Source of the DNA: Isotricha intestinalis
Lineage: Eukaryota; Ciliophora; Litostomatea; Vestibuliferida; Isotrichidae
Direction: 5' to 3'
Length of the DNA: 10,820 nucleotides
NCBI GenBank assembly: GCA_023807065.1
Contig: JAJJLU010004644.1
Coordinates: forward strand, 1 to 10,820
The first letter of the stretch is position 1; each line of letters begins with the position of its first letter. The translations under genes were made by a program, and so were the position numbers. This document shows, piece by piece, positions 996 to 9,795 of this stretch. Under the pieces are notes generated by a model. It worked only from the letters and a program-made list of their open reading frames with translations. It was not told where the DNA came from and did not search any database.

Positions 996-1694
996 ATGGA
1001 TAATTATAAAGATTTTTATTATCCAGAAAAAAAAACTTTTGGAAACAAGCCATTGTCAATGAAAATTTTAGGAAAATGTTTAACAAAAGTAACTGCAATA
1101 TGTAAAATTTTGAAAGAAAATGGAGGTGGAAGTGGTTTTTTTTGTAAAATAAAATTTGAAAATAATGAATTAATCGGTTTATTTACAAATAATCATATTT
1201 TAAATAAAGAAGACATAGAATTAAATAATATAATTCAAATTGAGAATGATGGTATAAAAAAATATATTCAAATAACAAAAGAAAGGCTAGTTTGTACAAA
1301 TTATAAATTAGATTATACTTTCATTCAAGTTTTGCCAAAGGATAATTTTAATAATTATTTTGAAATTTATGATAAGATTAATATTAATCAGCTTAATAAA
1401 GAATATAAAGATAAAACGATTATTATGATGCAATACCCAGAATTACAGGATTCTTCTTTTGGATATGGAAGAATCAATGAAATTAATGATTATCACTTTT
1501 TGCATACAATTGCTACTGAAGAAGGTTCTTCTGGTTTTCCAATAATTTTATCTGATGATAATTTAAATGTTATTGGAATTCATTGTGGAAAAACTGATAG
1601 AGATAATTTAAATAGAGGGGCTAATATGAAAAAAATTTTAGAAGATATTCAACAAAAGTTTTCCAATCTACAAATAATTTATATGAGAATGTAG
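996..1694 (+). CDS. Trypsin-like (S1-fold) serine protease domain protein
   Basis: The 232-residue open frame has the three trypsin-fold landmarks in order: FTNNHIL with His67, LDYTFIQV with Asp106, and EEGSSGFPI with Ser179 as the likely nucleophile, followed by the core strand IGIHCGK at about 193-199. The GGGSGFFCKI stretch before the histidine is the usual beta-strand leading to it. These residues are seen directly; the S1/HtrA-like assignment follows from family knowledge. There is no signal peptide or membrane segment, so a cytosolic protein is likely. The frame ends at TAG 1692-1694, but an overlapping frame (offset by -1) continues as good coding sequence, so the original protein was probably longer (see next entries). 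No intron is needed inside this domain. Substrate unknown. Confidence 0.8.
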   Translation: MDNYKDFYYPEKKTFGNKPLSMKILGKCLTKVTAICKILKENGGGSGFFCKIKFENNELIGLFTNNHILNKEDIELNNIIQIENDGIKKYIQITKERLVCTNYKLDYTFIQVLPKDNFNNYFEIYDKININQLNKEYKDKTIIMMQYPELQDSSFGYGRINEINDYHFLHTIATEEGSSGFPIILSDDNLNVIGIHCGKTDRDNLNRGANMKKILEDIQQKFSNLQIIYMRM

Positions 1695-3675
1695 ATAATA
1701 CATTTATGCAAATTAATCCATATTATAATCAAGAAATTGGATTTCAATATTATAATTATGATAATTTGAATTATGGAAATCAAAATTTTACAGCAAATTA
1801 AAATCCACAAAATTATTACCATTTTCAACCTTTACAACCTTTTCAAAATGTTCAAACTATTCAAAAAATTCAACCATTAGGAAAAAAAAAATGGTTTGAC
1901 AAATATTTAGATCTTTATTCTTTCTCTCAATTAAAGAATAATCAAAGTAAATGGTAAAATATTTTATAAAACAAACAGTTTGTAAAATGATAAATATAAA
2001 ATAATATAGTAAGTAAATAAATATCATATATATTAAGGTGTGGGTAAAAATAATAATATAGTATTATAGCAAGTAAGAAATTTAATAACAACAAATTTAG
2101 TGAGTAAGAAATATAATAATAATAAAGTATGTAGGAATTAAAAAATATAATTATTGTAGGAGGTAAAATATAATATTATTCTAGTTGGTAATTAATTTAT
2201 AATCAAATTTTAGGAAGTAATAAATAAAATAATATTTAAGTATGTACAAAATATAATAATAAAAATATTCTATAGGTTGTATAGATAAAATAATATAAAA
2301 ATATAGTAAGTATAAAAATTTAATCATAAAATTAATAGAAAGTCAAAAATATTATTTTGAAGATAATTAGTGGGTAAGAAAAATAAAAATATATAATCTT
2401 AAAGTTCGTAAAATATATATTAATTCTATGTAGAAAATAAGAAATCAACAATAAAAGTTTATAGGGGGTTAAAAAATTTAATCATATATTACAGTCTGTA
2501 TAAATTTCAATAAAAATATTAAAAGTTTGTAAAATATAGGAATAATTATAACAATATAGAGGGTTAAAATATAATAATAATATTAGTCAATAAAAAATAT
2601 CAATTAAAAAAATATAGCATGTAAATAATATAAAATAATCTTATAGAATGTAAAAGATAAAAAAAATAATACAATAGAAAGTAAAGAAAATCGTAATAAT
2701 AATATTAAATAGAAAATAAAAAAATTATAAAAAAATTAAAGCAAGCAAAATATTATTAATAATTTAAAAAGAGAGTTAAATATAAAAATGATCCTTTAAT
2801 AGTAAGTAAGAAATAATAATAATAATGTAGAAAGTAAAGATTGTTAAAAATAATATAAAAGTGAGTTAAGATAATAATAATCAAAAATTGTAGATTGTAA
2901 AGAATATATAAATAATAAAAATTTAATTGAGTAAAAATATAATATTATAATGATAATAGGTTGTAAAAATAACAATAATATTCTAATAGTGAGTAAGAAC
3001 ATAATAATAATATATAGTGAGTAAAAAATAGGATATTATATTATTCTAGCTTGTAAAAAATGCAATAAAAATAATATTAGGATGTAATAAATATTATTAA
3101 TATATATTATTATAGGGGGTAATTATTTTATTAATATTATAGGAGGTAAGAAATATAATAATATAGTATGTATAATATTAATATAAAAATATTAAAGAAT
3201 GTTAGAAATTCAATAAAATGATAGGAAGTAAAAAAAATTAAAAAATATAAAGTGCATTGTATATGATAAAATTCATTATAGGGAGAAAGATACATTTATA
3301 TAATATTATAGTAAGTAAGAAATATTGTAATTATAGAATGTAAGGATTTTTATGATTTTATAGTTCGTAAGAAATATATTAAAAATAAAGAAAGTAAATA
3401 TTTAATTTTAGAAAATAATAGCAAGTAAATAAAAGTATATTAAAAATGAGTATGTATGAATAAAATCTAAAAAAAGTTTGTATGAAAACATCATAATAAT
3501 TATAAAGAAAGTTAGATTTAATTATTATTTTTTTTGATGGTATTTATTATTTTCTTTTATATTTTAGTAAAAAGTAATTTTTGTTATTAATATAAGCTGG
3601 TAAACTTTTTGATTTATTTTCAGTGGGTATTTTATTTAATTAAATGTTAGATATGAATTTATCATTGAAGACTAA
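1685..3675 (+). CDS. Q-rich linker plus micro-exon-encoded zinc-ribbon-like C-terminal domain
   Basis: Exon 1685-1953 reads, in the frame that starts at 1685, as an N/Y/Q-rich then Q/P-rich linker (for example QPLQPFQNVQTIQKIQPLG) ending with an incomplete codon TG at 1952-1953. It contains one in-frame TAA at 1799-1801. From 1954 the coding sequence is split into 56 micro-exons and a final exon 3651-3675. Joined at the marked boundaries they add 67 residues without a stop, starting CFKCGNDMSW and ending LKCKNCGYEFIIED, then TAA 3673-3675. Two CxxC pairs flanking about 51 residues suggest a zinc-binding ribbon. The tail is best read as the C-terminus of the upstream protease-like protein, from which it is separated by a -1 frameshift near 1680. 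Whether the gene is intact is uncertain: the frameshift and TAA could be real lesions or sequence errors. No separate ATG after the TAA would start the tail alone. Confidence 0.65.
1954..3650 (+). repeat. Tandem array of 57 tiny introns separated by 3-6 nt exons
   Basis: The repeating unit is GTAAG-like donor, 21-32 nt of A/T, TAG/AAG acceptor, then three variable bases before the next donor. Micro-exon starts: 1979, 2010, 2038*, 2070, 2101, 2128, 2160, 2185, 2214, 2241, 2276, 2307, 2339, 2371, 2405, 2434, 2465, 2495, 2526, 2560, 2587, 2618, 2647, 2678, 2713, 2742, 2772, 2803, 2831, 2862, 2894, 2928, 2960, 2990, 3018, 3050, 3081, 3116, 3143, 3167, 3198, 3225, 3253*, 3282, 3312, 3337, 3364, 3391, 3422, 3451, 3477, 3508, 3537, 3568*, 3597, 3624 (* = 6 nt, all others 3 nt). 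Intron lengths sum to 1520 nt (mean 26.7) and exons to 177 nt, exactly filling 1954-3650. All introns are phase 2. Fifty of 57 are GT...AG. Read in phase 2 there is no stop; phases 0 and 1 have at least ten and eight. The length and GTA...TAG ends match ciliate introns of the Paramecium type. Splicing itself is inferred. Confidence 0.85.
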
Positions 3676-5378: not shown

Positions 5379-5978
5379 TTAAAAAATTATACATCTACAT
5401 CCAATATTATCTTTATCATTTTTTTCGCAATCCTTCAAATATTTATTCCACTTATTATAAAGTAAATTTATAATATTATTACAATTGGTATTATCTTTAG
5501 CAGAACATTCAACATAATCAACTTTCCATAATTTACTTATTTTTTCAGCTTCTTCAATTGTAACTTCTCTTTCATTATTTAAATCACTTTTATTTCCAAT
5601 TAAAATAATGGGAATATTTTTATTACCTTTGATTTCAATGATTTTATCTCTTTTTTTCAATAAATAATCAAAACTTTCTTTATCATTAATTGCAAAAACT
5701 AAAATAAAAGCGTCTCCATTTGTTATCCAAGAATATAATAAATTTTGATAATCTTGTTCTCCTGCTGTATCTAATATTTCTAAATTTATTTGTTTGGAAT
5801 TTATATTTACTACTAAATTATATTTGTCTTCTATTGTTGGATCATGCTGTTCGGGATATTCTATATTTATTAATCTATTTGTTATTGAAGTTTTACCTAC
5901 AACTCCTTTTCCTATTATTGTTATGTGGATATCTATTTTGTTAAGAGGATTTGAAGATAGGGAATTTGTGTCTTTCAT
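5379..5978 (-). CDS. Ras-family small GTPase
   Basis: The full-length 199-residue small GTPase has every G box: P-loop GKGVVGKT (23-30), switch I Thr48 in DPTIED, DTAG (70-73), NKSD (129-132) and SAK (159-161). It ends in CRCIIF, a CAAX box with Cys196; the final Phe favours geranylgeranylation, and Cys194 could be acylated. It should therefore act as a membrane-attached GTP/GDP switch. The residue at the Ras Gln61 position is Glu74, with Gln at 75, so intrinsic GTP hydrolysis may differ from classical Ras. Subfamily (Ras/Rap/Rheb-like) cannot be settled here. No introns are needed. The CAAX box lying directly before TAA is good evidence that TAA is a true stop in this genome. The gene is transcribed divergently from the ribulokinase gene. 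Confidence 0.93.
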   Translation of the reverse strand: MKDTNSLSSNPLNKIDIHITIIGKGVVGKTSITNRLINIEYPEQHDPTIEDKYNLVVNINSKQINLEILDTAGEQDYQNLLYSWITNGDAFILVFAINDKESFDYLLKKRDKIIEIKGNKNIPIILIGNKSDLNNEREVTIEEAEKISKLWKVDYVECSAKDNTNCNNIINLLYNKWNKYLKDCEKNDKDNIGCRCIIF

Positions 5979-6626: not shown

Positions 6627-8294
6627 ATGTCAAAGCAATATGTAATAGGTTTAGACTTTGGAAGTGATTCAGTCCGTGCTCTCCTGGCAAATGCATATTC
6701 CGGAGAAGAAATAGCACATGAAGTATGTTTTTATCCTCGTTGGCAAAAGATGTTATATTCGAATCCTGCTGAACAACAATTTCGTCACCATCCCTTAGAC
6801 TATATTGAATCAATGACGGAAGCAATAGCAAAATTGACAAAAAAATATAAAGACATTGCTTCAGATGTAGTAGCCCTTGCAATGGACACGACAGCATCTA
6901 CTCCTGTCTTTGTGGATGAACATCTCACCCCTCTTTCCTTGACCGATAAATACAAAGAAGATCCAGATGCAATGTTCATTCTCTGGAAGGATCATACCGC
7001 ATGGAAAGAATCGAATGAAATAAATGAAGCTTTACAAAAAAGTCAAGTTAATTATGCAAGAGAAATGGGTAATTATTATACACCTGAAGGTTACTGGGCT
7101 AAAGTATTACATATATTAAGAACTAATAAAAATATAAGAAAAGATGCTTATTCTTGTATTGAATTATGTGATTATTTACCTGCTTTACTAACTGGATGTA
7201 CTAATATGAAAGATATTAAATGTGGACATTGTATTGCAGGAGTTAAAATGATGTATTCTGTTGATTGGAATGGTTTTCCTCCTGAAAATTTCTTCAAAGA
7301 TATTGATCCTTTATTAATTCCAATATTAAAGACTTTACCAAAGGAAAATTACACTTGTGATACAGCAGCTGGAAAATTAACAAAAGAATGGGCAAAAAAA
7401 TTGGGATTAAATGAAGGGATACTTATAGGAGTTGGAAATGTGGATTCTCATTCTGGTGGAGTAGGTGGTGGAGTATGTTATGGTACTCTAGTTATGAGTT
7501 TTGGTACTAGTGCCGGTTACATGACAGTAATGCCAAAGAAGGAAATGGAAGGAGTGACTATTGATGGTGTTTATGGGCAAGTAGATTCTTCAATTCTTCC
7601 TGGAATGATTGGATATGAGTGTGGTCTCTCAGCTATGGGAGATTGTTATGCTTGGTTGAAAAAACTATTAATGTGGAATATAACTTCAGTAGTTGGGAGT
7701 TTAAATTTCTTATCAGCAGAGATTAAAGATAAAATTATTAAAGAAAGTGAAAATTTAGTTTTGTTGAAATTAACAGAAGAATTAGAAAAATTAAAAGTTG
7801 ATGAAAAATTCCCTATTGCAACTGACTGGTTTAATGGTCGTCGATCACCAAAAACAAATAATGCTCTTAAAGCCACAATTACCAACTTGAATTTATCAAC
7901 CAGTTCACCAGAGTTATTCTATTCATTAATTGAAGCTACATGTTTCGCGACAAAAGCAATAATAGATCATTTTGTAAAAAACGGAGTTTTAATAAAGAGG
8001 ATAATCGCAATAGGAGGAGTAGCTGCAAATAGTCCTTATGTAATGCAGTTGATGAGTGATACTATTGGGATGGATATTAATGTAAGTGACTGTAAGCAGG
8101 CAGGGGCATTAGGATCTGTGATACATGCTGCTACGATTGCAGAAATATATCCTACTGTTGAGTCTGGTCAAATGAGTATGTGTAAAAAGGTAGTGAAAGT
8201 TTACAAACCTAGAAAGGAAAAGAAGGAATTTTTAATGAAAAGGTATGAAATGTATAAGGAGATGGAAGCATTTTCTGAAAAGAATTTTAAGTAA
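6627..8294 (+). CDS. araB: L-ribulokinase (FGGY carbohydrate kinase), bacterial type
   Basis: This 555-residue enzyme phosphorylates L-ribulose to L-ribulose 5-phosphate with MgATP, the second step of the bacterial L-arabinose pathway. Length is close to E. coli AraB (566). Diagnostic blocks: GLDFGSDSVRALL (8-20, nucleotide-binding start of FGGY kinases), FYPRWQKM, QQFRHHPLDYIESM, LWKDHTAW (119-126), the catalytic-base region with Asp273 in VGNVDSHSGG, FGTSAGY, DWFNGRRSP (400-408), and the second nucleotide-binding block IGGVAANSPYV starting near 462. No transit or signal peptide is visible, so it is probably cytosolic. Araban/arabinoxylan use in a plant-rich gut fits. No araA or araD is in the window. 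Horizontal transfer from bacteria is inferred: it is bacterial in type, intronless and far less A/T-rich than its surroundings, most strongly in the first 130 codons. Confidence 0.95.
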   Translation: MSKQYVIGLDFGSDSVRALLANAYSGEEIAHEVCFYPRWQKMLYSNPAEQQFRHHPLDYIESMTEAIAKLTKKYKDIASDVVALAMDTTASTPVFVDEHLTPLSLTDKYKEDPDAMFILWKDHTAWKESNEINEALQKSQVNYAREMGNYYTPEGYWAKVLHILRTNKNIRKDAYSCIELCDYLPALLTGCTNMKDIKCGHCIAGVKMMYSVDWNGFPPENFFKDIDPLLIPILKTLPKENYTCDTAAGKLTKEWAKKLGLNEGILIGVGNVDSHSGGVGGGVCYGTLVMSFGTSAGYMTVMPKKEMEGVTIDGVYGQVDSSILPGMIGYECGLSAMGDCYAWLKKLLMWNITSVVGSLNFLSAEIKDKIIKESENLVLLKLTEELEKLKVDEKFPIATDWFNGRRSPKTNNALKATITNLNLSTSSPELFYSLIEATCFATKAIIDHFVKNGVLIKRIIAIGGVAANSPYVMQLMSDTIGMDINVSDCKQAGALGSVIHAATIAEIYPTVESGQMSMCKKVVKVYKPRKEKKEFLMKRYEMYKEMEAFSEKNFK

Positions 8295-8517: not shown

Positions 8518-9795
8518 ATGAGAATAAACATTTTATTTATTATAATATTTACTCTATCAAAAGTAAATGTTAAAAAAATTAAAATAAATTTTGAAAGAAA
8601 AAGAAATGAAAATTCAAAAACATATTTTATGGAAGAGTATTTATGGAATAATATAATAACAAAACTGAAAGTTGGTTCAAATAAAAAAGAAATAAATTTT
8701 TCTATAAGACTCCAAGAATATCCTTTAATTTTAATAGGAGAAAAGACAATTACTAAATATGAAAAATACAATTCTTCATTATCAAAAAGTTATAAAAAAT
8801 TAAATGAAAAAAATATTTTAAGTTCATTTACTTTTTATTCAAATTCAACTTTATCAGAAGAAAATTTTTTTATAGAAAACAATAATTTAAATTTACAATT
8901 TTTATTAACTAATGAAATTGACATCGATTCTGGAATAAAAGAAATTGGGATAATTGGTTTAGGAATTCAAGATCCTACTTTAAATCATAATTTAATAAAA
9001 GATACTAATTTAATATTTCAATTAAAGAAAAATAATTTAATTTCTAATTTGATTTTTACTATTAAATTTATAAATGATTTTCAAGGAGAAATTATTCTTG
9101 GAGAAAATAATTATAATATTTATGATAATAAAAAAAATTTAGAAGGATTTAATTTTATTAAAACAGAAAATTTAAATGGTATTTTTTTTTGGGGAATAAA
9201 TTTTGATGAAATATATATAAATAATAATATAATTGATTATGATGTTGTTGTTAAATTTAAAATTGAATTAAATATTATTAAACCAAATTCTCAAGTTTTA
9301 GAATATTTAAAAAAAATGTTTTTTGATGATTTAACTAAAGACAAAAATTGTTTTATTAATGAATTAAATGAAGAAAATGATTATTATTATTCTTGTAATA
9401 AAAATATTGATATAAAAAAATTTCCTCAAATTAAATTTTATTTAAAACCTTTTCAACAAGAATTTATTTTAAATTATAATGATTTAATTATTGAAAATAA
9501 TAATTTATATTATTTTTTAATTATTTTTAGAAATTATCCTCAAGGATTTGAAGTTGGATTTCCTTTTATGAAAAAATATTATTTTTTATTTGATTATGAT
9601 AAAAAATTAATTGGAATTTTTAAAGAAGGAAATCAAAGATTTAATTATTTTAATTTCCTTGTTATTTTTTTCGTTATTATTATTATTATTTTAATCCTAT
9701 ATTATATTTATTATTTTAGAAAAGAAAATAGAAGAAAAAGAATTAATGAAGTTGAAGATAATTATGATTATATTCCTCATAATTTAATGGGATAA
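8518..9795 (+). CDS. Membrane-anchored pepsin-fold protein, catalytically inactive
   Basis: The 425-residue protein starts with a hydrophobic signal (about 3-14, INILFIIIFTLS) and has one transmembrane helix near 378-400 followed by a basic stop-transfer stretch KENRRKR, so it is a type I membrane protein. The body follows the A1 (pepsin) fold: an opening strand near NNIITKLKVGS, IGIIGLGIQDP (the hydrophobic-GLG strand of pepsins), a GEIILGENN strand, WGINFDEIYINN, a late Cys pair (CFIN...YYYSC), and FEVGFPFMKKYYFLFDYDKKLIGI near the end of the domain. At the places expected for the two catalytic DTG triads I read SIRLQEY and FKIELNI, so both aspartates are missing. It is probably a pseudoprotease; ligand unknown. 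It lies 223 bp after the ribulokinase gene. Confidence 0.75.
   Translation: MRINILFIIIFTLSKVNVKKIKINFERKRNENSKTYFMEEYLWNNIITKLKVGSNKKEINFSIRLQEYPLILIGEKTITKYEKYNSSLSKSYKKLNEKNILSSFTFYSNSTLSEENFFIENNNLNLQFLLTNEIDIDSGIKEIGIIGLGIQDPTLNHNLIKDTNLIFQLKKNNLISNLIFTIKFINDFQGEIILGENNYNIYDNKKNLEGFNFIKTENLNGIFFWGINFDEIYINNNIIDYDVVVKFKIELNIIKPNSQVLEYLKKMFFDDLTKDKNCFINELNEENDYYYSCNKNIDIKKFPQIKFYLKPFQQEFILNYNDLIIENNNLYYFLIIFRNYPQGFEVGFPFMKKYYFLFDYDKKLIGIFKEGNQRFNYFNFLVIFFVIIIIILILYYIYYFRKENRRKRINEVEDNYDYIPHNLMG

Follow-up and report, generated by a model that had tools for sequence, protein, structure and literature searches.

Coding DNA in ciliates can be interrupted by internal eliminated sequences, short AT-rich segments that follow other border rules and are removed from the DNA itself. 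Very short exons are known from the micro-exon genes (MEG) of Schistosoma, in which exons of 3–81 bp are separated by introns of up to 5 kbp and encode variable proteins (PMC10526429; here and below, statements refer to the cited portions of each source). In Arabidopsis, APC11 contains an exon of a single nucleotide, for which intron definition with stepwise removal has been proposed (PMC4674806), and ultra-short exons are also spliced in among the plant microexons and in Fusarium CYP621A (PMC8831610, PMC12940212). The introns of Stentor measure 15–16 nt and are AU-rich, GU-AG and spliceosomal (PMC9505925), and a gut ciliate of the group suspected for the present genome uses the standard genetic code with introns of ~100 bp and 0.62 introns per gene (PMC11316547).

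The window analysed here is a whole contig of 10,820 nt (C2080) from an assembly of 57.3 Mb in 2153 contigs. We parsed it using dynamic programming that scored splice sites and preferred 3-nt exon lengths while ignoring the reading phase. Between 1954 and 3650 of the forward strand the parse returned a chain of the form AG-NNN-GTA with 57 introns and 56 micro-exons (Table 1). A sequence-only reading of this DNA had described 57 tiny introns of 21–32 nt and 56 exons, three of them of 6 nt, and the same numbers were thus reproduced independently of phase. We consider it probable, at approximately 0.86, that the tail of the protease gene encodes a zinc-ribbon-like domain cut by these 57 introns into exons of one or two codons, which the spliceosome is predicted to join.

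Table 1. Positions of the features in the window and of the 1-nt exons in other loci
Feature	Position	Strand	Details
Trypsin-like serine protease exon	996..1661	+	PF13365, E 5.8e-5, 24.3 bits against a curated cut-off of 27.6
Low-complexity linker	1662..1953	+	Ends ..WFDKYLDLYSFSQLKNNQSK plus TG; frame change at ~1640-1700; TAA at 1799-1801
First intron	1954..1978	+	GTAAAA..CAG, 25 nt, phase 2 (TG/T)
Micro-exon array	1979..3626	+	53 exons of 3 nt and 3 of 6 nt (at 2038, 3253 and 3568); 55 introns of 21-32 nt
First zinc knuckle, CFKCG	1979..2043	+	Exons TTT, TAA, GTGTGG; the 6-nt third exon recurs in paralogs
Second zinc knuckle, CKNCG	3568..3626	+	Exons TAAAAA, CTG, TGG
Last intron	3627..3650	+	GTATTT..TTAG, 24 nt
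Last exon	3651..3675	+	(G)YEFIIED plus stop TAA at 3673-3675; Y-x-F following the second knuckle is also seen in paralogs
Ras-type small GTPase	5391-5978	-	CaaX-like end CIIF
FGGY carbohydrate kinase	6627-8294	+	Start looks less AT-rich than its neighbours
Aspartyl protease (PF00026)	8521-9795	+	C-terminal hydrophobic helix
1-nt exons of L014, L019, L026	4003; 1233; 2388		
1-nt exons of L028, L038, L047, L048	3569; 201; 1036; 1041	-	

The introns between the window micro-exons begin with GT in 50 of 55 cases and end with AG in 53 of 55, and the first and last introns are both GT-AG. A less strict parse admitted introns of 19–35 nt; a looser one that omitted weak sites kept 52 exons, and its set phase was again free of stops. 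The exon near 2427/2434 can be read as either TAT or AAA. The sequence-only reading had proposed shuffled controls, and in 200 dinucleotide shuffles the array score reached 6.4 at most, compared with 115.9 for the window, and 3-nt exons never numbered above four. On either strand, four further AT-rich stretches of the window scored no higher than 1.9, and the minus strand and the reversed window no higher than 3.4. When the length preference was removed and exons of 1–12 nt were allowed, 49 of the 54 window exons were still 3 nt long.

A ciliate code in which TAA and TAG stand for glutamine was considered and rejected, as TAA, read in the standard code, closes three genes of the window (Ras, FGGY and aspartyl protease), and the Ras protein then acquires its CaaX-like end. 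The FGGY carbohydrate kinase was possibly gained from bacteria.

Upon joining, the window exons contained 10, 0 and 8 stops in the three phases. The open phase is that of the upstream exon, and the counts agree with the at least ten and at least eight stops previously noted for the wrong phases. Following ..AAA TG of the upstream exon, the joined exons give CFKCGNDMSWNMFKNGSKGLLGHIIKNKDKNEFEFDDLMGSIMNALDKISNNILKCKNCGYEFIIED and then a stop codon; the earlier statement that the last exon has no stop was therefore mistaken. The tail has the form CFKCG...LKCKNCGYEFIIED-stop, a zinc-ribbon-like C-terminus downstream of a trypsin-like protease. Two CxxCG motifs frame the segment, and two such motifs arose in only 2 of 20000 shuffles of exon order. 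A profile search with the joined tail, as the sequence-only reading had suggested, did bring up zinc ribbons, all weak and none above a curated cut-off; the best match, at the end of the tail, was Zn_ribbon_RPB9 (E 0.0036; 17.6 bits against a cut-off of 25.2). An intronless version of the joined tail was not found in the genome, where the matches were the upstream exon itself and two weak ones (E 0.19 and 1.45), and the tail was absent from the protein relatives among the 120 matches listed of 568. The knuckles are predicted to be zinc-binding and to present a variable insert.

The protease exon shares 47% identity with that of the paralog L024. Its GSSGFP presumably surrounds the catalytic serine, the His/Asp/Ser assignment having been made by eye. 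PF13365 was found on at least 117 of its relatives among the 120 matches listed of 568, and at least 63 metagenome relatives in the same list end exactly in tryptophan, a residue that accounts for 0.5% of the total. Such a terminal tryptophan is what read-through of TG/GTAA produces, and the donor is thus conserved across many contigs. In the metagenome relatives P0079, P0085, P0099, P0116 and P0084 the protease is fused to PF03382 repeats or to a Ras-type GTPase domain, and it has thus been combined with various partners. No viral contig carrying the protease was confirmed.

The sequence-only reading had the upstream exon setting phase 2. This holds for the last stretch before 1954 and for intact paralogs, on which the phase therefore rests, and fails further upstream, where the frame of the window copy is broken. 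Unlike the window copy, L013, L024, L027 and L012/L025 have a linker that is open up to the donor. An attempt to rescue the window linker with at most three GT-AG introns gave four solutions in which 1881–1953 is retained, and each of them cuts the protease. The linker has a frame change and a TAA that no set of up to three such introns takes out while sparing the protease, and the paralogs are open; this suggests that the window copy may be a dead or mis-sequenced paralog with an array inherited open from a working gene. To this reading, which is compatible with our main account, we give somewhat less than an even chance: 67 codons of array and last exon can still be read without a stop and neither knuckle is damaged, which argues against a dead copy, and homopolymer base-calling errors are possible.

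The genome was scanned for repeats of AG-NNN-GTA, a search proposed at the outset, and many arrays were found. Three-unit runs occurred 1513 times genome-wide compared with 88 for the reversed pattern, and for AG-NNN-GTAAG the corresponding counts were 110 and 0. A tblastn search with a paralog protease gave 62 matches, and seven of the ten protease paralogs with downstream DNA read lead into an array (L039, L040 and L044 do not). In all, 34 loci were read (20 + 10 + 4), of which 28, with the window, make up the 29 arrays counted below. We left out L012 (which repeats L025), L015 (a chain of six exons), L022 (no chain of at least six) and the three protease paralogs that lack an array. Alleles or close copies may be present among the 29, a few of the first parsed "exons" belong to the upstream exon (e.g. 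AGT in L025), and the extensions of L042 and L045 beyond the stretch first read are outside the counts. The 29 arrays comprise 1002 micro-exons and 973 introns. With a parser that favours multiples of three, 969 exons are 3 nt long, 23 are 6 nt, eight are 9 nt and two are 12 nt; without the length preference, 904 of 994 are 3 nt. The introns have a median of 27 nt (5–95% range 22–36; longest parsed 85). As these arrays hold 526 of the 1513 AG-NNN-GTA triplets, the genome may contain ~80 arrays, a rough extrapolation from loci that were picked for their matches. Arrays reach the contig ends in C396, C515, C1127, C1229, C1465, C1592, C1668, C1834 and C1925; the assembly thus probably breaks inside arrays, and long ones are undercounted.

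Next, the reading phase was set for each array, by the upstream exon in 22 of the 29, by family motif and last exon in L016, L018, L020, L021, L023 and L030, and by intron resemblance only in L031, two phases of which are open. In the set phase there were no stops in 1028 joined codons (577 + 451); under a stricter parse the family phase of L014 and that of L028 each contained a single stop, and looser intron limits removed both. Codons straddle exons in the 19 phase-2 arrays, and there 84 of the 547 3-nt exons are themselves TAA, TAG or TGA, compared with 0 of 422 in the ten phase-0 arrays, where each exon is a codon (Fisher 8.6e-23); L045 was assigned to phase 0 by its upstream exon, and counting it as phase 2 gives 84/602 and 0/368. 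Shuffling the exon order of the 19 phase-2 arrays produced a mean of 19 stops and a minimum of eight, and none of 5000 shuffles reached zero. Most single phase-2 arrays are too short for this test: L041, L013 and L030 gave 0.001–0.05, and the window gave 0.43. Among family B arrays (see below), codons that specify one and the same residue in different loci differed 0, 0 and 26 times at positions 1, 2 and 3 over 128 pairs, a third-position bias that partly follows from the genetic code. Taken together, the stop-free arrays, the cysteine knuckles rebuilt at separate loci and the absence of stop-triplet exons only where an exon equals a codon strongly support coding one codon at a time. The earlier proposal of such a domain is upheld in this respect, with removal of the spacers by the spliceosome as its predicted part.

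Most of the arrays fell into families. Family A contains 16 arrays including the window. Where its 5′ end was read, the upstream segment resembles NPIGKYEY..DLYTTKQFEENK and ends in TG before the donor; the array opens with C-F-x-C in ten of 11 cases (the exception being L037), through exons TTT and TAA (or TGT and TAT) and a third exon of 6–12 nt such as ATGTGG. Nine of these 11 have a protease match upstream, and in L017 and L046 the segment stands without such a match. At the 3′ end, all 14 arrays that reach it close with CxxC, and the last exons shown go on with Y-x-F. Family C consists of L029 and L049, which lie behind B-boxes above the cut-off (E 6.7e-7 and 1e-6).

The nine arrays of family B rebuild WEL(R/K)CxxC..(Y/W)xGExxP..CPxCG at separate loci. 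L019 follows a protein kinase (Pkinase, E 4.5e-38) with a sub-threshold B-box, L026 a B-box just under the cut-off and L038 a protease, and L014 and L028 have short stand-alone starts upstream. Between WEL(R/K) and the array lies an exon of a single nucleotide (A or G), which completes AGA, AGG or AAG. It was present in all six pattern matches in the loci read, and L048 is alike, with GLR replacing WELR. With this 1-nt exon the phase changes from 2 to 0, and each later exon is one codon. No homologue of the family B domain in one piece was found among the predicted proteins. Upstream of the WELK exon of L026 (before 2388), a single 36-nt GT-AG intron outside the array would remove an in-frame TAA.

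In L042 and L045 the array directly follows a protease exon. The longest array read, in C1893 (L054 plus L042, minus strand), has 107 consecutive 3-nt exons, and their join has no stops, compared with five and 18 in the other phases, and looks largely helical. Its first 57 codons form a heptad coiled coil, and none of 2000 shuffles was as periodic. L042 was the sole positive of 20 arrays for heptad periodicity; L045, which resembles a coiled coil by eye, was not periodic (p 0.5). The inserts differ from one another: Tyr, Asp and Glu are abundant in that of L030, and the L013 join is hydrophobic, with a 19-residue mean of 3.0, enough for a membrane helix. Pfam searches with eight joined tails gave no match at E <= 0.1 in five (proteins 1, 3, 5, 6 and 8), weak and mostly zinc-ribbon matches in two, and 20 families, none above its cut-off, for the coiled-coil tail of C1893.

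Next, the intron borders were examined together with the splicing machinery. Among the 973 array introns, 914 start with GT and 43 with AT, and 970 end with AG; the donor consensus is GTA, and GTAAA, GTAAG and GTAAT are commonest. In the phase-0 arrays L014, L026, L028 and L038 several introns start with ATAAG in place of GTAAG, which may be a functional variant or a sign of decay. The genome has two U6 matches of 108 bits each and a PRP8 domain (E 2e-228) within an open frame of 2473 aa. PRP8 and nine full-length CCT-family genes are uninterrupted in the parts examined, and the Ras, sugar-kinase, aspartyl protease and coiled-coil genes of the window are each one open frame. The CCT-family search returned 16 entries; besides the nine that span the family, the others are partial except a tenth gene in C1403, which is split into two pieces, the first with five stops inside, and which may contain introns or have decayed. 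Thus, within the genes examined, introns are concentrated in the arrays.

From the GT-AG borders, PRP8 and U6 we infer that the spacers would leave at the RNA level, via the spliceosome. As exon definition would need more than 3 nt, each tiny intron would be removed as its own unit, one after another, by intron definition. All exons would normally be included and their codons joined in order, since the knuckle spacing and the coiled-coil heptads need every exon in order. As nearly all exons have lengths divisible by three and share one phase, the frame would survive if an intron-plus-codon unit were skipped, gained or lost, and the insert length would be free to evolve. Counting against this account, splice sites are so dense that the spliceosome would have to avoid skipping, 59 of the 973 introns do not start with GT, the Pfam matches are weak or absent, the joined tail was not found among the protein relatives listed nor a one-piece homologue of the family B domain among the predicted proteins, the window copy is broken upstream of its array, and heptads occur in one array.

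The main rival is that the spacers are DNA segments eliminated in nuclear development, like internal eliminated sequences, with the codons joined in the DNA and the contigs being germline or incompletely processed. The host genome is probably that of a ciliate, as its 18S stretch, matched by the Rfam eukaryotic SSU model, appears to be of the trichostome type found in animal guts, and near-identical copies differ by whole units: L012 and L025, alleles or recent duplicates, are 96.7% identical over 950 nt, with two whole intron-plus-codon units of L025 missing from L012. Both points fit elimination. However, eliminated elements of the Paramecium type have TA-repeat borders, whereas the array borders are GTA..AG with strand polarity, at the frequencies given above, and PRP8 and the nine CCT-family genes are uninterrupted. 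We therefore regard elimination as improbable, and prefer splicing.

The arrays were also analysed for traces of their origin. In 26 neighbouring intron pairs that are 100% identical (823 nt), the adjoining exons differ at 39 of 78 nt, and the exon is the same in four pairs; in 54 near-identical pairs, the introns differ at 28 of 1676 nt and the exons at 76 of 162. For exon pairs drawn at random from one array the difference is 0.63. In L029, seven successive introns are the same 28 nt, and the six exons between them carry five different triplets. Simple duplication of intron-plus-codon units would have copied the codon too, so local copying or homogenisation seems to act on the introns independently of the codons. 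Events involving whole units are seen as well: besides the two-unit difference between L012 and L025, L019 carries a repeated block of twelve codons (DSWVKDLGDEE plus one). The window introns are as unlike their neighbours (difference 0.69) as random pairs (0.69), and the window array therefore looks old.

The similar repeat units in many arrays, and tandem-repeat calls over much of the region, could be taken to mean that the array is a non-coding AT-rich tandem repeat imitating splice sites. We consider this very unlikely, in line with the earlier judgement that no plain tandem repeat is involved: the shuffles fall far below the window score, a single phase is open in 29/29 arrays, the triplet varies while the surrounding unit is conserved, and knuckles and codons are common to separate loci. 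Translational bypassing, in which ribosomes would hop over the spacers and no RNA be spliced, has a precedent in some yeast mitochondria, where the bypassing elements are tens of nucleotides long, but is just as hard to credit, as it gives no reason for GTA..AG, and these borders, the phase-2 arrays, the 1-nt exon and the spliceosome core parts all fit introns.

If the arrays are spliced as predicted, whole domains made from dozens of consecutive 3-nt exons are a limit case for splicing, and they raise the question of how the spliceosome keeps exons in order when there is hardly any exon for it to recognise. The identical introns next to differing codons make local intron multiplication testable, and gene finders may have missed such protein domains elsewhere. 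A further idea, which we put forward as speculative and hold to be unlikely, is that the units are codon cassettes, one-codon exons carried in self-spreading copies of a mini-intron, forming a variable insert between two knuckles on proteases, kinases and B-box proteins. If this were true, units added, lost or skipped in frame could give a repertoire of recognition surfaces, comparable to a single-celled eukaryote's immune or self-recognition system, and the cassettes would be a new way to build and diversify proteins.

No description of arrays of one-codon exons was found in titles and abstract openings from the open-licence literature, which leaves their absence in print unproven. The gut ciliate cited above shares with the present genome the standard code with TAA stops, AT-richness and size, and differs in its intron figures as given in the cited portion of the source. 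Internal eliminated sequences are alike as short AT-rich interruptions, whereas the array borders here are splice-site-like. The Stentor introns are similar in shortness, AU-richness and GU-AG borders, and arrays of one-codon exons are not described in the part of that paper cited. In APC11, the plant microexons and CYP621A, as covered by the cited passages, exons of 1–3 nt occur singly or few together in ordinary genes, whereas here they make up whole domains. The Schistosoma MEG resemble the arrays in having many very short exons within one family, with lengths that are multiples of 3. Unlike the MEG, with their long introns and mixed exon lengths, the arrays described here have introns of ~27 nt and exons that are nearly all of 3 nt, in runs of up to 107.
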